Below, one piece after another: positions 3,671-34,100 of a DNA stretch of 48,766 nucleotides (positions within the stretch are counted from its first letter, which is position 1; each line of letters opens with the position of its first letter). The stretch is from an uncultured Bacteriovoracaceae bacterium. Lineage in GTDB: Bacteria > Bdellovibrionota > Bacteriovoracia > Bacteriovoracales > Bacteriovoracaceae. A program made the translations under genes and the position numbers. The notes under the pieces are model-generated. The model was given only the letters and a program-made list of their open reading frames with translations, did no database searches and was not told the DNA's origin. The stretch lies in assembly GCA_950054155.1 (NCBI GenBank), contig CATLOT010000030.1, positions 1 to 48,766 of the forward strand, written 5' to 3'.

Positions 3671-4606
3671 ATGCACCTTTATCCAGAAATAGAACCCTAC
3701 CACACTGAAATGCTTCCCGTCAGTGATATCCACACCCTCTATGTGGAGCAATCGGGAAATCCCGAGGGGCGCCCAGTCGTCTTCTTACACGGAGGACCAG
3801 GAGGCGGAACCTCTGGTCAATACCGCCGCTACTTTGACCCTAAAAAGTGGAGAATCATTCTACTTGATCAAAGAGGTTGTGGACGTTCAACGCCTTTTGC
3901 AGATTTGCGCGATAATACCACATGGGATCTTGTAGAAGACCTCGAAAGAATCCGTAAACATTTCTCAATCGACCAATGGGCAGTGTTTGGTGGTTCCTGG
4001 GGTTCAACTCTTGCTCTTAGCTACGCCGTCACCCACCCCGAAAAAGTGACAGCGCTCTTTCTAAGAGGAATCTTTATGCTACGTCAAAAAGAGATTCATT
4101 GGTTCTATCAAGAGGGAGCCAGTCGCATTTATCCCGATGCCTGGGAGCACTACATTGCTCCCATTCCTCAAGAAGAGCGCGGCGACTTAATTCAGGCCTT
4201 CTACAAACGCCTCACAAGTGACAACGAAGAGACGCGAAAAGCTGCAGCAAAAGCGTGGTCCATTTGGGAGGCCTCCACTTCGAAACTTGTCCAAGATCAA
4301 GATCTCATGAGTGCCTTTGGTGATGATCAATTTAGCCAGGCCTTTGCTCGGATAGAATGCCACTACTTCACCAATAAGGGATTCTTTGAAGAGGAAAACT
4401 TTCTTCTTAATAATGTCGATAAAATCCGTCACATCCCAGGCATTATTGTTCAGGGACGCTACGATGTCGTATGCCCAGCAGAAAGTGCTTGGGAGTTGCA
4501 TAGAGCATGGCCAGAAGCTGAGTTCAAACTCATTCAAACTGCAGGACATTCATTGAGTGAAGAAGAAATAGGAAGAGCTTTAGTTGAGGCAACGGATAGG
4601 TATTAA
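3671..4606 (+). CDS. pip: Proline iminopeptidase (alpha/beta hydrolase, peptidase S33)
   Basis: A 311-residue cytoplasmic alpha/beta-hydrolase that matches proline iminopeptidase from end to end; the family releases N-terminal proline from peptides. The oxyanion-hole motif HGGPGGG, the nucleophile elbow GGSWGS, the acid in GRYDVVCP and the histidine in AGHS form the expected triad. Its length is normal for the family (about 310-320). The gene is divergent from polB with about 60 nt between them. There is no signal peptide, so a role in using imported or internal peptides is likely. Confidence 0.93.
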   Translation: MHLYPEIEPYHTEMLPVSDIHTLYVEQSGNPEGRPVVFLHGGPGGGTSGQYRRYFDPKKWRIILLDQRGCGRSTPFADLRDNTTWDLVEDLERIRKHFSIDQWAVFGGSWGSTLALSYAVTHPEKVTALFLRGIFMLRQKEIHWFYQEGASRIYPDAWEHYIAPIPQEERGDLIQAFYKRLTSDNEETRKAAAKAWSIWEASTSKLVQDQDLMSAFGDDQFSQAFARIECHYFTNKGFFEEENFLLNNVDKIRHIPGIIVQGRYDVVCPAESAWELHRAWPEAEFKLIQTAGHSLSEEEIGRALVEATDRY

Positions 4607-4798: not shown

Positions 4799-5686
4799 CT
4801 ACAGGGAAACCTTAATTTCCTGAATCAAAGTCTCAAGGAGAGGGTGGCCATCACGGGCCTTGTGATAGGAAAGACTCACTTTATGAGGAAAGAGGCCAGA
4901 CTTACTCTTATGACCTAAGTCCACGGCCTCAAGTTGACCCTTCTCAACAGCGGCACCTGCTACTCCTTCAGGAAGAAAGCCCAAGCCTAATCCATTGAGC
5001 GTGAGCTCCTTTACAGATTCCAAAGAGGACATTGAGTAGATCTTGCGCTCATCTATTTTAAAGGGATTGAGCTTGTCTCGTACCGATTCCCCTGGGGCAA
5101 AGCTATCGGGCATCACTATAAAAGGGGCCTTTTCTAGATTTTCAAAGAGAAGCTTCTTCTTGGTGGAGCGGTAAAACTTAAAACGGTCTTCTCTTAGAAC
5201 TTGGATAATACTCTGTGCGCTTTCCTCGGGATTAATGACAAGAATAAGGTCAAGCTCGCCTTTATTGAGAAGCTCCTGCATCTGTCGCGAGCGTCCCGTT
5301 GTCATTTCTATCGATAAATTAGGAAATTTAGCGAGAAACTTCTTTAGAAAAGCGGGCCAAAAATAAATACCAATGGAATCGTAAGTCCCCACCCGAAGAG
5401 AGCCTGCCATAGGATCTTCAAGACTCTCAAGGCGCTTCTCTACGCTCTTTAGGCTACTAAAGAGTTCGTGGCAATATTGGTAGAGAACCTCGCCTGCCTC
5501 TGTCATTTTCACCCCTCGAGGAAGTCGGATAAAAAGCTCATGACCGACAACCTCTTCAAGAATTTTCATGGATTTAGAAAGAGAGGGCTGAGTGACAAAG
5601 ACGGCTTGAGAGGCCTTCTTCATTGAACCTAACTGCGCAATCTCATAGAAGTAATGGAGTTTTTCTAGATGTTCTCTTAAATACAT
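4799..5686 (-). CDS. LysR family transcriptional regulator
   Basis: A 295-residue LysR-type regulator. The N-terminal winged helix-turn-helix covers about residues 1-65, with the typical core AVFVTQPSLSKSMKILEE. It is followed by the two-lobed co-inducer domain, seen in RVGTYDSIGIYFWP and MPDSFAPGES. AGAGGG just before the ATG supports the start. The gene is divergent from a nitroreductase-fold flavoprotein with 92 nt between them, the classic arrangement for a LysR protein controlling its neighbour and itself. The shared gap contains the palindrome AGCTATAGCT (5696-5705). The inducer is unknown. Confidence 0.92.
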   Translation of the reverse strand: MYLREHLEKLHYFYEIAQLGSMKKASQAVFVTQPSLSKSMKILEEVVGHELFIRLPRGVKMTEAGEVLYQYCHELFSSLKSVEKRLESLEDPMAGSLRVGTYDSIGIYFWPAFLKKFLAKFPNLSIEMTTGRSRQMQELLNKGELDLILVINPEESAQSIIQVLREDRFKFYRSTKKKLLFENLEKAPFIVMPDSFAPGESVRDKLNPFKIDERKIYSMSSLESVKELTLNGLGLGFLPEGVAGAAVEKGQLEAVDLGHKSKSGLFPHKVSLSYHKARDGHPLLETLIQEIKVSL

Positions 5687-5695
5687 ATACCCTCT

Positions 5696-5705
5696 AGCTA
5701 TAGCT
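5696..5705. promoter_or_regulatory. Candidate LysR operator (short palindrome)
   Basis: A perfect 10-bp palindrome AGCTATAGCT sits directly upstream of the lysR start, in an AT-rich 92-bp divergent intergenic region. LysR proteins usually bind interrupted dyads of the T-N11-A type, so this is a location-based guess. Confidence 0.25.
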
Positions 5706-5778
5706 TATATTATCTTTTCTCAATTTTTTTATACCTAAAAAAGATTTAACTTGTCGTCAACAGAGGAGTGAAAAAATC

Positions 5779-6435
5779 ATGCTAGAAAATTACCAAACAC
5801 CAAATTACCATCATGACGATGCCCTCTCGATTTCGCGAGATCTTGTGCCTCTCTTTAAGCGTCGCAGGACCATTCGCCATTTCTCCGATAAAATCCCTCC
5901 CCAAGAGGTCATTACCAACGCCATTTCTGTAGCGGGCCTAGCCCCAAGTGGCGCTAATAAGCAGCCCTGGAGCTTTGTCGTCATCTCAAACCCTAACTTT
6001 AAGGCCCATCTCCGTGAGCTTGCTGAGCGCGAGGAATATCGCTTCTACGTTGAAAAACCCAATGAGCAGTGGGTAAAAGACCTCGCTCACCTTCACTGTA
6101 AAATCGAAAAGCCCTTCATGACAGAAGCGCCTTATTTAATCGCCGTCTTCTACAGCCACTATGATGTGAATGAAGAGGGTGAAAAAAGCACCAACTATTA
6201 CGCCAAGGAATCTGTCGGTATCGCGACAGGTATGCTTATCTCTGCGCTTCACCTGTGTGGACTCAGCTCCCTCACCTATACGCCAAGGCGTATGACCTTT
6301 CTCGCTAAGGAGCTGGGAAGGCCTCAACACGAGAGAACCTTTATGCTTCTTGGGGTCGGTGCCCCTCATCCTGAAGCGGAGGTGCCAATCATCACCAAGA
6401 AGAGGCTTGATGATATTTGCTCAATCTATAATTAA
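5779..6435 (+). CDS. Nitroreductase-superfamily flavoprotein of the iodotyrosine deiodinase (IYD) type
   Basis: A 218-residue FMN-dependent protein of the nitroreductase fold. It aligns with animal iodotyrosine deiodinase rather than with NfsB-type enzymes. Shared features are the FMN-binding RRRTIR start, the core LAPSGANKQPWSFVV, the lid segment with WVKDL, and TYTPRRM for the FMN-N5 Thr region. The three residues that in mouse IYD (E153, Y157, K178) bind the halotyrosine zwitterion are present at the same spacing as E86, Y90 and K111. Reductive dehalogenation of halotyrosines is therefore the best guess; reduction of another substrate is possible. GAGGAG upstream supports the start. The gene overlaps the convergent PLD gene by 4 nt and is divergent from a LysR regulator. 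Confidence 0.85.
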   Translation: MLENYQTPNYHHDDALSISRDLVPLFKRRRTIRHFSDKIPPQEVITNAISVAGLAPSGANKQPWSFVVISNPNFKAHLRELAEREEYRFYVEKPNEQWVKDLAHLHCKIEKPFMTEAPYLIAVFYSHYDVNEEGEKSTNYYAKESVGIATGMLISALHLCGLSSLTYTPRRMTFLAKELGRPQHERTFMLLGVGAPHPEAEVPIITKKRLDDICSIYN

Positions 6436-7742
6436 CGGCAGTGCTTTTGTCCTCTTCTTAAAAGAGCGTCAATTTCGTCATGCTCAAGGGCCATGGGAGC
6501 AAACCCACAGCTCATCTTTTCACCCTTTTGATTGGCAAGGGAAATCTGCTCATGAAGAGGAGTGAGGGCTTCACGTCTTAAATTCCAAAGACGATCAAAG
6601 TCTTTATTGAAGCCATTCAAAACGTCTTGGCTTTCTTTGCGCTCAATCTTAACGACATTTTCAATGTGGTTAAATTCACCAGAATAAGACCAGTTAAATG
6701 AGCCCGAAAGAACCACATCGTTATCGATGATGAGGTATTTCGAATGCATTTGCTTATTAAGGTAAGCGCTGGTGAGGACACTGAAGAACTTTAATCTGAC
6801 GTCGATAAGTTCATGTCCTTCAAAGTCATCCCCTCCCAAAAGAGAAACATAATTTACACCTGAAGAGCATTCTCTATCGTATTCATCTTCACAGTGAGGG
6901 AGGTTCATTTTGTTACGTTGCCTTTCCCAATCATACTCCCCCATTGTAACGAGTATTTTGACTTCCACGCCACGCTTGGCTGCTCTAATAATTGCATTGT
7001 AAATGGGGCGTAATTTAAGGCGTGTGGTGGCAATCTCAACAACTTCTTGGGCCTCATCAATGGCGTCAACAACCTTTCTCGTAAGAGTAAACCCAAGCTC
7101 CCCTCTCTTTTTAGAAAGACGCCCTCTCTTAACAACAAAATTATCTTTATTAAAATAGGCCTTTCCTAATCCAGCAGAACTTTCCTCTCTTGCAAAAACT
7201 CTATCAGAAAAAGATGCTCCAATCTCCTCACTCACTTCCCACAGAAAGTTGAATTCATCAAAGAATGATTGGGCCATCGCCCCTTCTTGATCAAAGAAGA
7301 GAATATTTTCATTGTAGTTTTTAAAGCTGCTCATAGACCAATTGGCAGAACCTGTGATCACACTAGCATCAGAGCGGTGACCATCGATCACGGCAAACTT
7401 ATGGTGCATCTTTTTAGAAGAGCGTAGCGAGCGGACATCTATGCCCATCTCTTCAAACTGCAGCATTTTCTTAAGATTATCCTCTTTCTTGGCATAGCCT
7501 TCAAAGATCATCCTTACTTGGAGTCCCTTGGCCTTGAACTCTTCAGAACTTAGATATTTAATGATGGGATTGTTTTCACTTGAGTCCATATTATAAAGAG
7601 CAAGGTCTACAGTCTCTTTCGCTCCCTTTAAGCGCTCTACAATGGCGTCAAAGGTGTTGTCGTAAGGGTGGAAAAGAACTCCAACCTTAGCGTTTAAGGA
7701 AAGAGTAAAAAGGGCGCAAAGCGCTAGGATGAGGTTTTTCAT
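6432..7742 (-). CDS. Secreted phospholipase D-like protein with two HKD motifs
   Basis: A 436-residue exported protein with a clear signal peptide (MKNLILALCALFTLSLNA). It has two PLD catalytic repeats: H113-x-K115-x4-D120 followed by TGSANWS, and H333-x-K335-x4-D340 followed by SGSFNWS. Both HKD motifs are complete, so the paired active site should work as a phosphodiesterase on phospholipid or nucleic acid; the sequence alone does not say which. Soluble two-domain PLDs of this size include nucleases and cardiolipin synthase-like enzymes. The protein probably acts in the periplasm or outside the cell. A 13-bp inverted repeat overlaps its weak AGAGAG ribosome binding site (see 7749-7800). Confidence 0.88.
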   Translation of the reverse strand: MKNLILALCALFTLSLNAKVGVLFHPYDNTFDAIVERLKGAKETVDLALYNMDSSENNPIIKYLSSEEFKAKGLQVRMIFEGYAKKEDNLKKMLQFEEMGIDVRSLRSSKKMHHKFAVIDGHRSDASVITGSANWSMSSFKNYNENILFFDQEGAMAQSFFDEFNFLWEVSEEIGASFSDRVFAREESSAGLGKAYFNKDNFVVKRGRLSKKRGELGFTLTRKVVDAIDEAQEVVEIATTRLKLRPIYNAIIRAAKRGVEVKILVTMGEYDWERQRNKMNLPHCEDEYDRECSSGVNYVSLLGGDDFEGHELIDVRLKFFSVLTSAYLNKQMHSKYLIIDNDVVLSGSFNWSYSGEFNHIENVVKIERKESQDVLNGFNKDFDRLWNLRREALTPLHEQISLANQKGEKMSCGFAPMALEHDEIDALLRRGQKHCR

Positions 7743-8614: not shown

Positions 8615-8623
8615 GGAGAAATG

Positions 8624-9727
8624 ATGAATATCAAGCCAATCAACAAATGGATTCCCAACCTCAAACGCCCTCTTGTTATAGCGGGTCCCTGCAGTGCTGA
8701 GACCGAAGAGCAAATGCTTGCTACGGCCAAGGCGGTCAGAGAGATTGAAGATGTTCGCATTTTTCGTGCTGGTATTTGGAAGCCGAGAACTCGTCCCAAC
8801 AGTTTTGAAGGGGTGGGAGAAAAAGGCCTTGCCTGGCTTAAGACTGTTAAAGAAGAAACAGGTCTTCTGGTCACCACAGAAGTTGCCAATGCGGGCCACG
8901 TTGAGCTCGCTCTAAAAAATGATATTGATATTCTTTGGATTGGCGCCAGAACAACAGTTAATCCCTTCTCTGTACAAGAAATTGCAGATGCCCTCAAGGG
9001 AACGAATATCCCTGTCATGGTTAAAAACCCTATCAACGCCGACCTCGCCTTGTGGATTGGCGCGCTAGAAAGACTTAATCTTGCGGGAATTGATAAGCTC
9101 GTCGCCATTCACCGTGGATTCTCAAGTGCTGAGAAAACAGAGTATCGAAATGTTCCTCACTGGCGAATTCCAATTGAACTCAAAAGACGTCTACCAGAAC
9201 TTCCTATTGTCTGTGACCCCTCTCATATTACAGGGGATCGCCATAGAATTGCCCTAGTATGCCAAAAGGCAATGGACGTTGATATGGATGGAGTCATGGT
9301 AGAAACGCACCCCACTCCGGATGAAGCGTGGAGTGATGCTGCCCAACAAGTCACGCCCACCATGCTGGCCGAAATAACGAAGTCACTTAAACTCAAAACT
9401 GAATTCTCACACGACCGCTCCTTTGAAACAGAGCTTTCAGAGCTTCGTCAGCAAATTGATCGCATCGATAGCGAACTCATGGAAAGCCTACGAATGAGGT
9501 TCAATATTGTTGAGAGAATTGGTGATCTTAAAATGAAGAATCATGTGACCGCCCTTCAGGTCCATCGTATGGACGAGATGATCAACAAAGTAAAAGCCCT
9601 TGCTGAGAACATGGGGCTGCGCGGCCAATTTGCAAACGAACTTTATCATGTCATTCACGAAGAATCTGTTAAAATACAAGCTGAAATGATGCGCTCTTTT
9701 CTTAAGGAACAAGAAAAGAAGAACTAA
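8624..9727 (+). CDS. Bifunctional DAHP synthase / chorismate mutase
   Basis: The N-terminal two thirds (about 1-260) is a type I DAHP synthase, joining phosphoenolpyruvate and erythrose 4-phosphate in the first shikimate step. Seen are VIAGPCSAET, the IWKPRTRP loop, and CDPSHITG with its metal/substrate residues. The C-terminal 90 residues are an AroQ-type chorismate mutase (LRQQIDRIDSELMES, then ERIGDLKMK), making prephenate. This domain order is known from type I-beta enzymes of Bacteroidetes and others, where the mutase domain also serves feedback control. An ATG at 8621 is possible, but 8624 lies 5 nt after GGAG and is preferred. It is the first gene of a four-gene operon. Confidence 0.93.
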   Translation: MNIKPINKWIPNLKRPLVIAGPCSAETEEQMLATAKAVREIEDVRIFRAGIWKPRTRPNSFEGVGEKGLAWLKTVKEETGLLVTTEVANAGHVELALKNDIDILWIGARTTVNPFSVQEIADALKGTNIPVMVKNPINADLALWIGALERLNLAGIDKLVAIHRGFSSAEKTEYRNVPHWRIPIELKRRLPELPIVCDPSHITGDRHRIALVCQKAMDVDMDGVMVETHPTPDEAWSDAAQQVTPTMLAEITKSLKLKTEFSHDRSFETELSELRQQIDRIDSELMESLRMRFNIVERIGDLKMKNHVTALQVHRMDEMINKVKALAENMGLRGQFANELYHVIHEESVKIQAEMMRSFLKEQEKKN

Positions 9728-9738
9728 AGAAGATTCTT

Positions 9739-10902
9739 ATGACTGATTTATTTGTGAGTGACCGAATCAACGCTGTCGTTGAGTCCAAATCCGTACAACT
9801 TGCTGGTGTGATTGCTGAGCTGAGAGCTAAGGGCGAATCCATTATTAGCTTTAATGTGGGCGAGCCTGACTTTGAAACCCCTGAGGTTGTGATCAAGGCT
9901 ACACAAGAGGCCCTTTCCCAAGGGCTCACTCGTTATGCCCTCGTGCCAGGAGAACCCTTTCTTCGCCAAGGGATCGCGGACAAACTAAAGAGAGATCAAG
10001 GTATCAACGCGAAAATGGAAAATATTTGCGTCAGCAATGGCTCCAAGCAGGTACTCTATTCCATCTTTCAAGTCATCTGTAACCCCGGGGATGAAGTTAT
10101 CGTTCCTATCCCCTATTGGGTTAGTTTTCCTGAGTCTATTCGCCTCGCTGGCGCCAACCCCGTTTTCGTAGAAAGTGAAAGTGGGGAGTTAAATATGGAG
10201 GGAATTGAGAAGGCCATCAATTCTAAAACCCGGGCTATTATCATTAATTCCCCTAATAACCCCTCGGGACGAGTCTTCTCTAAGGAACAAAAAGAAAAGC
10301 TCGTAAAAATCTGTCGTGAAAAGAATCTCTATCTTGTCAGTGATGAGGCCTATGAAACACTCATCTATGGTGATGAGCCCTTTTCTGGCCCCGCTGGAGT
10401 TGCTGATCAGAATCTTGAGAGAACCCTTATCGTGCAAAGTTTCTCTAAGAGTTACTGTATGACAGGCTTTCGTTTAGGTTATGTGGCAGGCCCTACGACC
10501 TTTATTAAAGCTCTTAATAAGCTTCAAAGTCATCTCTGTGGCAACACTCCCGTATTTGTGCAAAAAGGTGCAGCCGCTGCACTTGAAAACGAAAAGGAAA
10601 TCGTCACTCACATGCGCCAGACCTTTAGAAAGCGCAGTGAACTGGCTTATGAATTAAGTAAGGAAATCTTTCCTCATACTCCTAAACCAGAAGGTGCCTT
10701 CTATCTCTTTCCCAAAATTCAAGAAGAACTCATAGCGAAATATGGAAGTGATGAAAATCTTGCTCTTCATATTTTAAAAGAAGCTAAAGTGGCGATTCTA
10801 CCCGGCTCCTTCTTTGGTCAACCGGGCTTCCTTCGCATTTGTTTTTCAACGAATGAAGAAAATATTGAAAAGGGCTTTAAGGCCATAAAGGAGTGCCTGT
10901 GA
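9739..10902 (+). CDS. PLP-dependent class I aminotransferase (aromatic/aspartate or prephenate type)
   Basis: A 387-residue fold-type I aminotransferase. The PLP lysine is K237 in SFSKSYCMTGFRLGY. Asp202 in SDEAYE binds the pyridine nitrogen, and SPNNPSG (171-177) is the usual substrate/PLP loop. The family includes aspartate, aromatic and prephenate aminotransferases, and sequence alone does not fix the substrate. It sits between DAHP synthase-chorismate mutase and TyrA, so it should transaminate prephenate to arogenate or phenylpyruvate/4-hydroxyphenylpyruvate to Phe/Tyr. It starts 12 nt after the previous gene and shares 4 nt (GTGA) with tyrA. Confidence 0.9.
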   Translation: MTDLFVSDRINAVVESKSVQLAGVIAELRAKGESIISFNVGEPDFETPEVVIKATQEALSQGLTRYALVPGEPFLRQGIADKLKRDQGINAKMENICVSNGSKQVLYSIFQVICNPGDEVIVPIPYWVSFPESIRLAGANPVFVESESGELNMEGIEKAINSKTRAIIINSPNNPSGRVFSKEQKEKLVKICREKNLYLVSDEAYETLIYGDEPFSGPAGVADQNLERTLIVQSFSKSYCMTGFRLGYVAGPTTFIKALNKLQSHLCGNTPVFVQKGAAAALENEKEIVTHMRQTFRKRSELAYELSKEIFPHTPKPEGAFYLFPKIQEELIAKYGSDENLALHILKEAKVAILPGSFFGQPGFLRICFSTNEENIEKGFKAIKECL

Positions 10903-11630
10903 AAATTGGCCTCATTGGTTTTGGTCGTCTAGGCCGCCTCATTGCAAAGAACCTCGCACAAGATGCTGACTTGGTGATTTATGATATTGCAGGCTACCAA
11001 GAAGAAATTGAGTCTATCGGCGCCAAAGCAGGAACCTTAAAAGAAGCGGCTTCTTGCCCAGTCGTCATTCCCTTTGTTCCGATGAGTGCTTTTGAAGAGC
11101 TCATGAAAGAGATTGCTTCCTTTGTGCAAAAAGACGCCCTTATTATCGATGTCTGTTCTGTCAAAACCCAGCCCGTTGGTTGGATGCAAGAACATCTTCC
11201 TGACAATGTTAATATCCTTGGCACCCACCCTATGTTTGGACCTGACTCTGCCAAAAACACTCTCTATGGCTGTAAGATTGTTCTCTGTCCCGTGCGAATT
11301 GAGCGCCAGCAATTCAATGAAATTAGGTCTTATCTTGAAACCCATGGGCTTCGAGTAATTGAGGCCACTCCCGAGGAGCATGATCAGCAAATTGCGCACT
11401 CTCTTCTTCTCACCCACTTTATTGGTCGAAGTCTTATGGAATTTAAGGCCGAGTCTCTTCTTATTGATACTAAGGGTTACCGCCGGCTCATGAAAATTCT
11501 TGAAACCGTTGAAAATGACAGCTGGCAACTCTTTGAAGATATGAATCACTACAATCCCTATGCCGAAGAGACCCGAGAGGATTTTATAAAGAGTATGGAA
11601 ACTATCCATAAAAAGGTTCGCAAATGTTAG
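10899..11630 (+). CDS. tyrA: Prephenate/arogenate dehydrogenase
   Basis: A 243-residue NAD(P)-dependent dehydrogenase. The N-terminal Rossmann motif is GLIGFGRLG. IIDVCSVK and GTHPMFGPDSA are typical of TyrA proteins, and the conserved histidine region is QIAHSLLLTHFIGRSL. It oxidatively decarboxylates prephenate or arogenate toward tyrosine; HPMFGPDSA resembles arogenate-type members, but specificity cannot be settled here. The GTG at 10899 overlaps the upstream TGA and lies 5 nt after AAGGAG; an in-frame GTG at 10893 is inside that site and less likely. No ACT or mutase domain is attached, consistent with the mutase being fused to DAHP synthase. Confidence 0.9.
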   Translation: MKIGLIGFGRLGRLIAKNLAQDADLVIYDIAGYQEEIESIGAKAGTLKEAASCPVVIPFVPMSAFEELMKEIASFVQKDALIIDVCSVKTQPVGWMQEHLPDNVNILGTHPMFGPDSAKNTLYGCKIVLCPVRIERQQFNEIRSYLETHGLRVIEATPEEHDQQIAHSLLLTHFIGRSLMEFKAESLLIDTKGYRRLMKILETVENDSWQLFEDMNHYNPYAEETREDFIKSMETIHKKVRKC

Positions 11631-12469
11631 TAGGCTTTCAAGGTGAACCCGGTGCTTATTCACAAGAAGCTGCCCTCAAATACTTTGGTCCAGACGTTAA
11701 GACCAAAGGCTATGCTCTTAGTGAACAAGTGGTAGAAGCCCTTATCAATGGCGATATTGATCAGGCGATTCTTCCCGTTGAAAATTCGATTGTGGGAAAT
11801 GTGAACGTCAATATTGATCTCCTCTATCAAAACCCCATCAAGGCGATCGGAGAAGTTTACCACGACATCCATCATCACCTCTTCGTCGTTCCCGGAACCC
11901 AATTAAGTGACATTAAAGAGGTCTATTCTCACCCTATTGCCCTGGCCCAATGTCGAGATTACCTCATTCAAAATGAATTACGCCCCATCGCTGATTATGA
12001 TACCGCAGGCTCTTGTAAACTCCTCGCCCAAAGAAAGAGTAAAACTCAAGCCGCTATTGGCTCAAAACTCTGTGCCGAGGCTTATGGCCTAGAAGTCGTC
12101 AGTGATCATATTCAAAAGGTTCATAATAATATCACCCGCTTCTTTATTCTGTGCCGCAATCAGGACTTTCGCTCTCACGCACAAAACCTTAGAGAAAGAG
12201 GAAAAACCTCAATCGCTTTTCGCGCTCATCACCATCCTGGTGCGCTTTTAGATTGCCTTGAAATATTTAAAAGCTTTGGCATCAATCTTACGAAACTTGA
12301 AAGTCGTCCGATTGTGGAAAATCCCTTTGAGTATATTTTCTATGCTGATCTTCAGCTGCCCCTTAACAATCCTCAAACTAAAGAATGTCTAGAGGAACTT
12401 AATCTTGATGCCCACCATGTGAAGATTTTGGGAACTTATAACGAAGGTAGAAAATCTCACCTACAGTGA
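11624..12469 (+). CDS. pheA: Prephenate dehydratase with ACT domain
   Basis: A 281-residue monofunctional prephenate dehydratase making phenylpyruvate for phenylalanine. The catalytic domain starts with GFQGEPGAYSQEAA and contains the diagnostic TRFFIL. The C-terminal ACT domain (about 190-275) has the GALLDCLEIF and KLESRP segments that bind phenylalanine for feedback inhibition. The ATG lies inside the end of tyrA (7-nt overlap), indicating translational coupling. Its 3' end overlaps the convergent yciB-like gene by 71 bp. With its three upstream partners it covers DAHP formation and everything from chorismate to Phe and Tyr. Confidence 0.95.
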   Translation: MLVGFQGEPGAYSQEAALKYFGPDVKTKGYALSEQVVEALINGDIDQAILPVENSIVGNVNVNIDLLYQNPIKAIGEVYHDIHHHLFVVPGTQLSDIKEVYSHPIALAQCRDYLIQNELRPIADYDTAGSCKLLAQRKSKTQAAIGSKLCAEAYGLEVVSDHIQKVHNNITRFFILCRNQDFRSHAQNLRERGKTSIAFRAHHHPGALLDCLEIFKSFGINLTKLESRPIVENPFEYIFYADLQLPLNNPQTKECLEELNLDAHHVKILGTYNEGRKSHLQ

Positions 12470-28260: not shown

Positions 28261-31146
28261 TTAATAAACGAGAGGGACTGTTTCGAGGGTCACTTCCCCC
28301 TGTCCTTTACGACAAAGCATCATGTAGTGAAAAGTACCATCAATCTTTTCGGGATTGAGGTAGACACAGAGATTTGGAATATCCACTGAAAAGCGAAGGG
28401 GGCGAATAAATCCTTCCTCCGTTTGGGCCATCGTGTAGAGACGATTGCCAAAGATCAAAGTGGAGTTAATAAATAATCCTGGTAAAGTGTCGCCCTCTTT
28501 CTTTAAGAGTATGGGGCTTAAGGTTTCAGAAAACTGAACACCCGGAAAAGAACTTTCTCTATTGATACGAAGACGTCCTTGTTCACCATTCTTCCCATAA
28601 GAACGGAGGTAGTAACGTGTTTCAATAAGTCTTGTCTTATTCTCATCATTGAAGGCACTGATAGAATTAAAGATGGGATCACTCCAGTTTTTTGTATCAA
28701 TAACAAGGGCTTCTCCTCTTTTCGTTTGCGGATTCCAAACATAGGAGCGAACCTGATCTCTCTTGAGGGCAGCAAGAAATTCAACATTTTCAGTCACTTC
28801 ACCAAAGTTCTCTCCACCAACACTTAGGAGTTCGCGTGTATTATTCCCAGCGAGAAGTCTCTCCGGAAAGAAAACCCTTTCAAAACTTAACTGGCCATTA
28901 ACAAAAGTATAGAGATAGTAGTCACGAGCAAATTCCTCACCGACAGAAACAAGACCACGGATGAGACCTAGTGCTCTATCTTTTTGACTCTGAGGAAAGG
29001 CTTCATCAAAGCTTACACTTTGCCACTCTTCAATAAAGAATTGCATTCTAAACGTATTGATGGCCTCAAGAGAGTTCACAACTCTTAAACGCATTTCACC
29101 ATTTTCCAAAGGCTCAAGAAAATACTGATGTTGGGCAATTGCCGTCTCGGGTACACGCTCAAGAATATCATCTGTATTATCCTCTTCAGGAAGACGGTAA
29201 GTCATTTTAAAGGTCGGAACAAGAAGGCTCCCTCCTTTAAAAGGAATGGAAATAAAAGCCGTTTCGCCAAGTTCATCATATTCAAGGGGAAAATTCTTAT
29301 AATTAAGAAGAGGAAAGAGAAATTTCTCCGTTTTATAATCTCCAGAGTCTTGTCCCAAAAGATAATTAAAAACGAGGCTCTTTTGATCTTCACTAATACC
29401 AAAGACAAGAAAATCAAGTTTTCCATCATCATTAAAATCTGCAAAGGAAACATTAGAGACTTCATGAAACTTTTCCATCTCCAGATTAAGTCTTCCCCAC
29501 TTCCCTTGTTTTCGCAAAAGAAAGGATAGAGTTGTCTTCTCTTCTGTTTGAAGACTAGGAACTTGAGCGTGGTATAGGGGAGCATTCGTTTCCTCAGAAG
29601 AAAAGCGCACCTTCTTCACGCGACTCACCTTACGAGCGCCCTCAATAAAGGTCAGTTCCGTGTCTTTGAAGCCTTCGATAGCCGAGACCTCATCAGCTCC
29701 CTCTCGCCCAAGGTCGCGAGAAAAGATAAGAGTTGTTTGGGTCACAGAGCTAAAGTCTGAAGACTTTAGTGCTACTGTCATAAGAAAATTACTGTCCTTA
29801 TTGAGATCAAGGAGCTTCCCTTTTATGAGAACACTTCTCTTTTGTCCCTCTTTCAAATCAACACTCTGTTCAGGAGCTTCAATAACAATATCACTGCGAT
29901 TAAAAGTCACCGAAACCTGGAGATCTTTAAAATCACCCATCAGCGATTCGATAGGCAGACTAAAGAAGAAACTTCCATCACGGCTTTTATAATTGAGATC
30001 AAGAAGCTCTTTAAAGTCTGGACTCGCAAAGTTCTTAGGCGCTGAGATCAGAGCCTTTTTCATGTCGACTAATCCATATTTTGAAAACTTCCCTTCAAAA
30101 ATACTTTCCTCACGATCACGACTTGAGCTAAAGAGCCTCGCCATGACTTCACGGATCGGCATTTGGGGATCAATTAATTTCAAGCTAGCAGCGATCCCTG
30201 CGATATAAGGAGAGGCCTGACTCGTTCCATTCTTCGTTTCATAGCCACGAATTCTTAGAATTCTTGATTCTACCGAGTCCTGAGGATAGGTTGAAACGAT
30301 AAACTCACCCGGTGCGAGAATATCAACCTTCCCTCCGTAATTTGAAAACTCTGTCACTGCGCCTGTATTATCAACAGCTCCAACACAAATGACTTTATCA
30401 ACGGTACAAGGGTATGTTGGCACTTGTTTATTATTATTTCCTGCAGCTGCGATAACGACGACGTTTCTCTGTGCCGCTAACGCGAGGGCCCTTTGCATTC
30501 GTGGCGTTTGCACAAGCTTCGGCCAACCAATAGACATATTAATTACATGAGCTCCCCGTTGAATGGCGTAAGCAATTCCATCGGCAAAGAGGTCCGTAAC
30601 GTAACGCTGATTATAGACAAAGCCAGAGATCTCATCGGAGAGGACTTTGACAGGAAGAATCTTTATACGCTCATCTGTTATTCCAGCAATCCCCTGTTTA
30701 TTTTGGGCAGTAGCTGCAATGATACCAGCGACGTGAGTTCCGTGGCCCATATCATCAGTAAGATCGAGATTTCGCTTTAAAATATTTATACCACTACAAG
30801 GCTTCGTTTTCGCATCTTCTTCTTTGGGGCATAGTTTCTTATCAAAGAATATTCTGTCCTTGATTTCCGGATGATTAACATCCAGGCCACTATCGAGAAC
30901 GGCAACAACAATTTCTCTATCGGCAGGAATATCGGGGGGTATGGATTTAAAATCCACATAATTAATATCCCTTCCTTTTATACCGACGATTTGGTCATAG
31001 GTAAGGTCACCACTACGGCGAGAAATCGTTTGCCCACTATTAGAGAGACCCCATTGTTTTTCAAAAAGAGTATCATTAAAGTCTTGTGCTTGAGTTCCTT
31101 GCCACAGTCCCGCGAGCAGCGAAAGGGGTAAGATTAAATTCTTCAT
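28261..31146 (-). CDS. Secreted subtilisin-like serine protease (S8) with large C-terminal region
   Basis: A 961-residue exported protease. After the signal peptide (MKNLILPLSLLAGLWQGTQA) comes a peptidase S8 domain (about 75-360). Its triad is D85 (AVLDSGLD), H135 (GHGTHVAG) and S309 (GTSQASP), with the oxyanion Asn in AAGNNNK (N237). There is no obvious I9 propeptide; only about 55 residues precede the domain. The remaining 600 residues are beta-rich and include an FG-GAP/VCBS-like repeat (SFADFNDDGKLDFLVFG). Its ATG overlaps the TAA of the upstream 1045-residue gene (TAATG), so translation of the pair is coupled. GGGAGAG precedes the start. It probably acts outside the cell or in the periplasm. 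Confidence 0.92.
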   Translation of the reverse strand: MKNLILPLSLLAGLWQGTQAQDFNDTLFEKQWGLSNSGQTISRRSGDLTYDQIVGIKGRDINYVDFKSIPPDIPADREIVVAVLDSGLDVNHPEIKDRIFFDKKLCPKEEDAKTKPCSGINILKRNLDLTDDMGHGTHVAGIIAATAQNKQGIAGITDERIKILPVKVLSDEISGFVYNQRYVTDLFADGIAYAIQRGAHVINMSIGWPKLVQTPRMQRALALAAQRNVVVIAAAGNNNKQVPTYPCTVDKVICVGAVDNTGAVTEFSNYGGKVDILAPGEFIVSTYPQDSVESRILRIRGYETKNGTSQASPYIAGIAASLKLIDPQMPIREVMARLFSSSRDREESIFEGKFSKYGLVDMKKALISAPKNFASPDFKELLDLNYKSRDGSFFFSLPIESLMGDFKDLQVSVTFNRSDIVIEAPEQSVDLKEGQKRSVLIKGKLLDLNKDSNFLMTVALKSSDFSSVTQTTLIFSRDLGREGADEVSAIEGFKDTELTFIEGARKVSRVKKVRFSSEETNAPLYHAQVPSLQTEEKTTLSFLLRKQGKWGRLNLEMEKFHEVSNVSFADFNDDGKLDFLVFGISEDQKSLVFNYLLGQDSGDYKTEKFLFPLLNYKNFPLEYDELGETAFISIPFKGGSLLVPTFKMTYRLPEEDNTDDILERVPETAIAQHQYFLEPLENGEMRLRVVNSLEAINTFRMQFFIEEWQSVSFDEAFPQSQKDRALGLIRGLVSVGEEFARDYYLYTFVNGQLSFERVFFPERLLAGNNTRELLSVGGENFGEVTENVEFLAALKRDQVRSYVWNPQTKRGEALVIDTKNWSDPIFNSISAFNDENKTRLIETRYYLRSYGKNGEQGRLRINRESSFPGVQFSETLSPILLKKEGDTLPGLFINSTLIFGNRLYTMAQTEEGFIRPLRFSVDIPNLCVYLNPEKIDGTFHYMMLCRKGQGEVTLETVPLVY

Positions 31147-34100
31147 TATAAACTCTCCCTTATCCAAGACCCATTGAGTTCGCCACCTTGAATTCCGATA
31201 ATATCTCTTAAACGGTCAAGGGGACCATTCCAGTACTTACTGCGGACACGGCCAATAGTATTAGCCCGAATGGGAGCATTTAGAATTTCAGACTCTTTTC
31301 TGAATCCATTAATCGCCCCATGAACAAAAACATTTTCAACACCAACAATTTTTAAAAAGTCGTTAAACTCGAGATCCTTAACCATCTTCTTGGCCAAGTC
31401 GAGGGCACATTTTGATTTCTTCTTTGTACCTTTAGTTAATTTTGAGCACTCCCTCACCTTATCCATCAGACTCCCAAGGTTGCCACATTCAATGAGCGTG
31501 CGTGCTGTACGGATAACGCGATTTCGCCTTGAATTTCGACGACATTCATTCCATCGCTCCCTACCATAACGGCGCCCAAGATCTTCTAAGGTCTTCTGAG
31601 TCACGTTTTCAATATTAGAAATCCCTTTTTCGTAGATATTAGTACTCACACTAATTTCAAAGAGTTGAAGGGCTTGAGCATCATTCACACTCCCCACATT
31701 AAAAAGTGTTGTTCCGTACTTTGTGTTGAGCTCATCAATATAGCGCTGAAGTTTCTTCTTGCTTGCAGACCATCCCTCTCTCTTATCGGTAAGACCAATA
31801 AAGCGGTCCTTCAATTCACTTTTATTTTTTCTAGCTTCAAAGCGAGCACTCAGTGTTTCACTCACTCCAAAGATACTTTGCCCTGGATTTTGAAAACGAT
31901 TCACATCCAATTGAGGAGTGATAGGAAGGTCCTTAGAGATGTCTTTGAGGTAATAGTTTATTACGTCATAGACAAAGCTCTGATAGTTAATCCCAGATTG
32001 AGACTGACTTGTCAGGCTTACAAACTCATTACGTTGCTGCCCTGGAGTGGTAAGCACAATATCATTGTCCCCCTTGAGGTACTTTGCCTTCCACACCAAA
32101 AAAGAGAACTTCGTCGATTTATCAAGAAAGTCTCCTTCGACAATATAGGGTTTCTCTCTCACCTCAAGAAGTTCACTTGACCCCTCTTCAATAAGACTGC
32201 TCAATGCAATGGCATTAGAAAAGAGATCTGGGTTCTCGCTAACCTCGCCGTTAATATTAACCTGATGAAACCTTACTTTGTACTTCCCCTTAGTCCGCGA
32301 AGTATCAACTTTTACCACTGGAATATAGTGATCGATCCCTGCATTCAGACTAAGAGTATAGGTTCTTCCTTTATCTTCATAAACATGAATAGTACTGGGG
32401 TCCTTTCTATAGAGGTGTAGTCTTCTCACAACAGCGCCTTGGACACCCCCACCGAGGCTCACCCTTGTTTCCATCATATTAAGGCTACCATTTCCAAAGA
32501 CTCTTGGAGTAAGTCTATCAGTAATAAGAAGTGATTCGCCGACTCCCAATGTTTCGTTAATATCTGAAATAAATCCTTCAATCGCCTTTAGCCTTGGATC
32601 AACACCATCAGCATCGGGCTCACTATCTTGATTAGGGAGGTCCCCTAACTGAGAGAGAGTCTTTCTAAGGTCCCTCTTTAAAAGTGGGACCATGAGATTA
32701 CGATAAGGCTCTTTAAACGAAGCCTTTAGGGTTTTAACCGGCTTAAGGTGAGTATAAGTTCTAACAGCACTCACGGTTCCTGAAACACTTGCAACTGGCC
32801 ATGAAGGTAAGTTTTCAATCCCCATAATGCCACCAAGAGTAAGAGAAACTCCCACAGTATCGGCCAATTGAACCAAATTATCTGTCCCTAAGTAATTGCC
32901 AACGACAATATCACGATTGAGGATGAGCCCTCCGTTAACGACGGGACTAAACCAAGTCCCCACGCCAAATTCTTTAAATTCACCCGTTTCAACAAAGTGC
33001 TCAAGTCCTTCCTCAAACTGATCTTTGATAAACTCAAACTTTGCTTCAGTAGGATCAAAAACACTGAGTTTCTCATTAACGAGACTCATTAAATTAGTGA
33101 GAACGGAACTTTGAATTTTAGAAAAAACAAAGTACTCAAAATCTTTGAACGGCGATTCAGGTTGGCCATGAGCAAAGCGGCTGGCATAGCCATCCCAGTC
33201 CTCTTTAAGAAGACGACCTGATTCCACTTCTCCAGCGATATTAATATTTGTTTCAAAGGAAATACTCTCGGCATCCACTTCTAAAAGAGAGAGAAGAGAA
33301 TTTCTTCGACTTATGAGCTTTTCAATGAGAATTGCTTCAACAGGCTTAGGAAAGCCAGAGGCCTCGACCACTTCTTTCCAATCATCACGATTGAGCTTAG
33401 CTAAACGACGAGCAGCCCACCGTGCGTCCTCAATCGCAGTGTTCATATTGGCGTAAGTAAAGTGCGGCAGCACCACGCTTTCATTATCGACAAGACCCAC
33501 ATTCCAAGGAAGCTTATTAACAGACTCTCCAAGGTTGACCACAGCGTAAGGAATAAGGAGGGAGCGCAAGGTTCGACTAACAAGCCGTCTTTGAGGAACC
33601 CCCATCGCTACATTGTAATGGTCTGTTTCTTGAGGCATAAAAGCAACAACATCATTAAATGTTAGGGTCAGTTGCTCATCCGTTAATTCTTTATGATCAA
33701 AACCTAACCAGCGTGAAGGCGCTCCATAAGTAGCTTCGGGTAGTTCTCGAGATAGAAATTGATCTCTTTGTTCAATATTGTCGAATGTTACTTTTAACGA
33801 CTTTAAATACTTCATTGGAGCGATCTGATAACCCAATTTTCTTAAGAGGTTTCTTCTGAGTAATGTTGTATGAAGAGTCTTTTCCAGCAGAATCGTAAAC
33901 ACTCGATCACGACCTTCCTCTGGAAGCACGTTAAATCTCATGATCCCTTGATTTGAGGAAATTGACCCTTTAAAGAGATATTCTTTCGATTCATCAATGG
34001 GGATTTCATCCCAGGCGGGATTGAGCACATTTTCGATACGGTTTTTCCACGTTACTGACTCCATAGGGTCGAGCAAGGAAAGATCCACTTTTTCATTTTG

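Follow-up and report, generated by a model that had tools for sequence, protein, structure and literature searches.

An iodotyrosine deiodinase-like gene of a Bacteriovoracaceae bacterium and its predicted co-regulation with an envelope redox cassette

Crystal structures of bacterial iodotyrosine deiodinases (IYDs) exist, and to our knowledge no role of IYD has been established in bacteria. A search of mainly open-access literature found no paper linking IYD to a bacterial regulon. An IYD-like open reading frame (ORF) was recognized in an uncultured Bacteriovoracaceae bacterium. Bacteriovoracaceae-like lineages are known for predators, and the question is which chemistry such an enzyme performs there and what it works with. 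The window, the whole stretch of DNA that was analyzed, is 48,766 nucleotides long. The gene and its start are as follows.

5779 to 6435, plus strand: IYD-like FMN enzyme of 218 aa, with an ATG start and, by eye, no apparent signal peptide.
5763 to 5768, plus strand: probable ribosome-binding site GAGGAG, read from the sequence.

The ORF matches the Pfam family Nitroreductase (PF00881) with 72.8 bits. The first-pass annotation had regarded it as IYD-like rather than as an ordinary nitroreductase, and a phmmer search against the PDB bore this out, with IYDs at 93–187 bits and the best other protein at 42. The best five matches are all IYDs: the Haliscomenobacter hydrossis enzyme (186.5 bits), the human (145.7) and mouse (144.9) enzymes, a mouse mutant (145.5), and a human Thr239 mutant (143.5). 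The IYD 6pz0 scores 93.3 bits, and the first non-IYD is 4dn2 with 42.3. The higher score of the H. hydrossis enzyme indicates that the ORF is nearer to this bacterial IYD than to the animal ones. As bacterial IYDs are already known, the enzyme taken alone is no new kind. Named relatives of the ORF come from Bdellovibrionota, Bacteroidota, Planctomycetota, Neomarinimicrobiota, Chlorobiota, Pseudomonadota, and a Heimdallarchaeota bin, and the nearest is a protein from a 'Bacteriovoracales' MAG with 72% identity. The window's own genome encodes one further nitroreductase-fold gene, without the IYD-type lid.

The PF00881 match, together with BluB and malonic semialdehyde reductase as weak NCBIfam matches, would be compatible with an ordinary oxygen-insensitive nitroreductase or a BluB/RutE-type enzyme. 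However, no NCBIfam equivalog is reached; the best model, BluB (TIGR02476), scores 49.5 bits where its cut-off demands 150, and the RutE malonic semialdehyde reductase model (NF003768) gives 36.4 where 152 are needed. These cut-offs and the rank, with IYD structures far ahead, led to the rejection of ordinary nitroreductase, BluB, and RutE, and with the tree described below this reading is very improbable.

A fold model of the ORF was built from 25 aligned sequences (pLDDT 90.5, pTM 0.86), and the predicted structure has the IYD fold with its helical lid. In the comparison with PDB chains, IYDs fill the top 12 places (Z 27.8 to 22.6, rmsd 1.2–2.1), followed by BluB (Z 18.6) and putative nitroreductases (18.4 and lower). 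By their titles, these 12 entries are FMN-bound except for 5yak, whose title names a fluorotyrosine ligand, and several are complexes with mono- or di-iodotyrosine. Among them, 6pz0, which we take to be from Thermotoga neapolitana, has the same fold with FMN and tyrosine bound (Z 23.2), although it is more distant in sequence (93 bits). Residues 1–218 of the model align with residues 68–286 of mouse 3gfd and 72–290 of human 4ttc. The N-terminal part of the animal enzymes before residue 68–72, which contains a membrane anchor, has no counterpart in the ORF. In a tree of 48 rows, the 44 IYD-like rows, including human, mouse, and H. hydrossis IYD (hhIYD), form a single clade (support 100/99), inside which the 23 Bacteriovoracaceae/Bdellovibrionota rows group together (97/92), with a Robiginitomaculum row as their neighbor. 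The root of this tree is uninformative because of the long outgroup branches. The assignment of the ORF to the IYD branch of the nitroreductase fold is well supported.

The residues corresponding to the substrate-holding triad and the flavin-side threonine of animal IYDs are encoded at the following positions.

6034 to 6036, plus strand: codon for E86 (mouse E153), by fold alignment.
6046 to 6048, plus strand: codon for Y90 (mouse Y157), by fold alignment.
6109 to 6111, plus strand: codon for K111 (mouse K178), by fold alignment.
6280 to 6282, plus strand: codon for T168 (human Thr239, mouse 235), by sequence and fold alignment.

The insertion of one residue falls after the TP motif, and thus E86, Y90, and K111 correspond to mouse 153, 157, and 178, and T168 to mouse 235 and human 239. 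The spacing proposed for the triad in the first-pass annotation is therefore exact. The human counterpart of T168, Thr239, adjoins the flavin N5. Residue conservation was analyzed with 47 distinct IYD-like rows, after 6 duplicate rows were removed. E86, Y90, and K111 are invariant in 47/47 rows; T168, with both Thr residues of TxTP, and the Ala of PSGA are likewise present in all 47. The three ordinary nitroreductase rows (3/3) are without the lid, the E, Y, and K residues, and both Thr residues.

Human and mouse IYD/DEHAL1 (4ttc, 3gfd) are 37% identical to the ORF and share the E/Y/K triad and the Thr at identical spacing. The H. hydrossis IYD (5ko7, 5ko8, and 5krd), with 43–44% identity in the fold alignment, shares the triad, the T before P, and the closed-lid fold. 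They differ in the lid, which is GTDW in H. hydrossis and HCKI in the ORF (W to I109), and in the motifs PSGAH and LTHTP, which are PSGAN and LTYTP in the ORF. The position of mouse W176 is thus occupied by I109; W is observed there in 19 of the 47 IYD-like rows, while TxTP reads TYTP in 16. The second half of the lid is the clade-specific change in the group of the ORF. The replacement of the lid W with I109 suggests a pocket unlike that of the animal enzymes.

This lid leaves room for another tyrosine- or phenol-like substrate, such as 3-nitrotyrosine, a halophenol, or a quinone, which the neighboring LysR regulator would sense in an electrophile or oxidative-stress response. The clade has no conserved tryptophan in the lid, the fold also includes nitro- and quinone reductases, and the gene cassette described below consists of redox, possibly quinone-handling, parts (YceI and cytochromes). 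The three residues that hold the amino-acid end are, however, invariant, which argues for an amino-acid ligand over a bare phenol or quinone. A different substrate is thus a sizable possibility, rated at about one chance in three. Reductive dehalogenation of a halotyrosine is held to be the likeliest chemistry, based on the conserved ligand triad and on the characterized IYD relatives, which dehalogenate halotyrosines; by analogy with them, we put its chance at about half.

The IYD-like gene has a divergent neighbor.

4799 to 5686, minus strand: LysR-type regulator of 295 aa, with the Pfam domains HTH_1 and LysR_substrate.

The two domains score 62.8 bits (PF00126) and 106.1 bits (PF03466), and no equivalog at its cut-off is present among the NCBIfam matches listed (25 of 56). 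The start codons of the two genes are 92 bp apart. Among 129 genomes of the family, the IYD gene was found in 22 (E ≤ 1e-15) and a LysR homologue in 14 (E ≤ 1e-45), all 14 of which are IYD-positive (Fisher 1.6e-13, with counts not corrected for shared ancestry). The divergent pair seen in the first pass is a kept arrangement, since each of these close LysR homologues (14/14) has an IYD gene within 3 kb. In a fifteenth genome (G117), the best LysR homologue, 33% identical, is beside the operon. Beyond the family, a LysR-type gene adjoins the IYD gene or is divergent from its operon in 8 of the 9 genomes of the phylum with IYD, the exception being G271.

According to PMC3930498, the target of the nematode IYD orthologue SUP-18 is a K+ channel complex, and the orthologue apparently requires its catalytic activity for this function; on that account, IYD ancestry is no proof of a salvage role. 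The bacterial protein could likewise be a flavoprotein with a regulatory or redox-sensing role, its ligand site retained but without metabolic dehalogenation. However, no channel or partner gene recurs beside IYD, and the conserved pairing with LysR resembles that of an inducible enzyme. A sensor of this kind is improbable.

Around the IYD genes of the family, a string of genes is repeated: LysR, a YHS-domain protein, a diheme cytochrome c, YceI, a heme protein of ~365 aa, and IYD. The gene order was compared for 18 relatives' loci. The five genes from YHS through cytochrome c, YceI, and the heme protein to IYD are contiguous at six loci (L071, L073, L077, L078, L079, and L080), and a shorter form with YHS and cytochrome ahead of IYD is seen at L072 and L074. 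In the window's genome, LysR and IYD are on contig C30 and the cassette is on another contig.

Contig C2, about 28692 to 31569: intact cassette of YHS, cytochrome, YceI, and heme protein genes.

The cassette YHS-domain protein is apparently secreted, and the two relatives' members tested both exceed the cut-off of the YHS-domain (seleno)protein family NF041384 (92 and 113 bits against 70). The Cys in YGGWCA is invariant. The NF041384 family appears in a selenoproteome review (PMC13188914). The cytochrome c is diheme with a lipoprotein-type start (by eye), and the heme protein has a single CxxCH near the N-terminus and belongs to no Pfam family; profile searches of the PDB with these two proteins gave no match. 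By eye, the cassette proteins appear to carry signal peptides. The cassette contains no recognizable halogen-specific gene, and a search of mainly open-access literature found no paper on the cassette or on YHS with YceI.

The YHS gene follows the distribution of IYD. It was found (E ≤ 1e-40) in 17 of the 129 family genomes, 16 of them IYD-positive with G001 as the exception, while 6 of the 22 family genomes with IYD are without a YHS homologue at this threshold, and one of them, G035, shows only a fragment where a contig ends. Across the phylum, 290 genomes were sampled; IYD occurs in 26 (E ≤ 1e-40), YHS in 22 (E ≤ 1e-30), and the two together in 18 (Fisher 5e-19, with counts not corrected for shared ancestry); beyond the family, the corresponding numbers are 9, 10, and 7. 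In G112 and G113, the cassette string is kept even though the adjoining LysR belongs to a different lineage (25% identical), which indicates that IYD is tied to the cassette and not merely to the regulator. At the thresholds used, heme-protein homologues occur in 66 and cytochrome homologues in 35 of the 129 genomes, and the more diverged homologues in IYD-less genomes suggest other uses for these two parts. At 22 loci of other phyla (L010–L031), no member of any cassette family was found next to the IYD genes.

Several variations were observed around related strings. The IYD-less genomes G004 and G115 (L108 and L109) carry a diverged cytochrome-YceI-heme-protein string, which at L109 adjoins heavy-metal-binding- and mercury-transport-like genes (by eye). 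In other families (L146, L147, L150, and L154), a glycosyltransferase-like gene takes the place of the cytochrome after YHS (by eye). In the window's genus, a two-gene ABC transporter (ATPase and permease; identified with Pfam for L098) is located just upstream of the YHS cassette at L098, L102, L103, and L104.

A putative regulator-binding site is located between the LysR and IYD genes.

5696 to 5726, plus strand: putative LysR box AGCTATAGCT...TCAATTT in the shared LysR/IYD promoter.

The box consists of a dyad around TATA, 17 bases, and then TCAATTT, and is common to the LysR/IYD and cassette promoters. The pattern GYTATASCT-N14-TCAATTT has two exact matches in the 3.52 Mb genome, at 5697–5726 of the window and 28627–28656 of contig C2; inexact matching adds 6 sites, each with two mismatches, against 13 for the reversed control. 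A search for extra box sites in the same genome yielded 6 matches against 4 for the reversed pattern, with TCAATTT only at the two known sites; three of the four matches besides these are inside ORFs.

Since the pattern was composed from the two sites themselves, two held-out matrix tests were made. The first matrix, built from 12 promoters adjacent to LysR, detects the box in 8/8 YHS promoters away from LysR. These promoters take the top 8 places among the 644 tiles of their loci, and none of 1000 shuffles scored as high as any of the 8. With a matrix trained only on 8 LysR/IYD promoters, the genus's 6 unlinked YHS promoters rank above all other tiles (822 half-overlapping tiles in those loci). 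In G119, IYD has its own box, separate from the LysR/YHS box. The 12-site matrix also detects the box in the LysR/IYD gap of G319, a genome of another family, with a score of 24.7. The box is absent at loci with a diverged regulator and at most LysR-less loci. No box was found at the IYD promoters of L075, L076, L081, L083, and L084, which are LysR-less or LysR-convergent loci of the family, and none at L077–L079 among the matches listed (70 of 85); at L080 the box score is weak. Co-regulation of IYD and the YHS cassette, as predicted from these promoter sequences, is well supported.

Other genes near the IYD locus were also inspected. Genes of the DAHP-synthase/chorismate-mutase, aminotransferase, prephenate dehydrogenase, and dehydratase types are in a row at 8621–12469 of the window (by eye). 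A DAHP-synthase-type gene follows the IYD locus in the close relatives L004, L037, L039, and L045 and is absent there in others. As it is not always near IYD and is beyond genes of the opposite strand, a functional link of IYD with the aromatic amino-acid genes was rejected and the arrangement was treated as neighborhood conservation. The gene at 3671–4606 encodes a prolyl aminopeptidase (TIGR01249, 463.7 bits against 259.75), which fits a peptide-consuming predator. On the strand opposite to IYD, 6432–7742 encodes a secreted-looking protein with two PLD-like domains, and its end overlaps the IYD stop codon; this gene was not found in the relatives' loci searched. The IYD frames of L054 (G119) and L155 (G275) each contain one internal TGA at non-matching positions, due to either a decayed gene or a sequencing error.

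The following mechanism is proposed. The ORF would produce a cytoplasmic FMN enzyme of the IYD subfamily, in which the E/Y/K lid would close on a tyrosine-like substrate at its amino-acid end, the backbone amide at A59 would bind the phenolate, and T168 would tune the flavin for stepwise reductive loss of an ortho halogen, converting iodo-, bromo-, or chlorotyrosine to tyrosine. We take these roles of the lid, A59, and T168 from work on animal IYD. The inducer that the divergent LysR may sense at the TATA-N17-TCAATTT-type box is probably the substrate or a phenol related to it, and LysR may turn on IYD and, in trans, the cassette of YHS, diheme cytochrome c, YceI, and N-terminal-heme protein as a single regulon against halogenated or otherwise oxidized phenolics, which would be its common trigger. 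The cassette would perform redox chemistry outside the cytoplasm, and IYD would remove halotyrosines inside. IYD is without a visible signal peptide and the cassette proteins apparently have one, so the regulon seems to be active on both sides of the inner membrane; given this separation, electrons are unlikely to pass directly between the two parts. The family, the residues, the fold, the LysR pairing, the co-occurrence, and the shared box come from computation, whereas the substrate, the inducer, the direction of regulation, and the cassette role are what we infer. The chance that a single LysR regulon joins halotyrosine dehalogenation by IYD to the in-trans envelope cassette is considered to be about even.

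The promoter box that IYD shares with envelope redox genes, and their common operon in relatives, make a role wider than halotyrosine salvage plausible. The marine origin that the first-pass annotation offered as an explanation is conjectural. It is conceivable, though doubtful at present, that the Bdellovibrionota IYD is the cytoplasmic arm of an undescribed LysR-controlled system, comprising the YHS protein, a diheme lipoprotein cytochrome, YceI, an N-terminal-heme protein of outer-membrane type, and IYD, that senses and reductively neutralizes halogenated or oxidized tyrosines or phenols. If so, it would amount to a dedicated pathway for halogen stress or organohalides and would give bacterial IYD its first physiological context. 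The enzyme itself is a further bacterial IYD, and it is the cassette regulated with it that deserves further work. Given a conserved regulator, its putative DNA box, and envelope redox genes under the same predicted control, the purpose of a bacterial IYD becomes directly testable.
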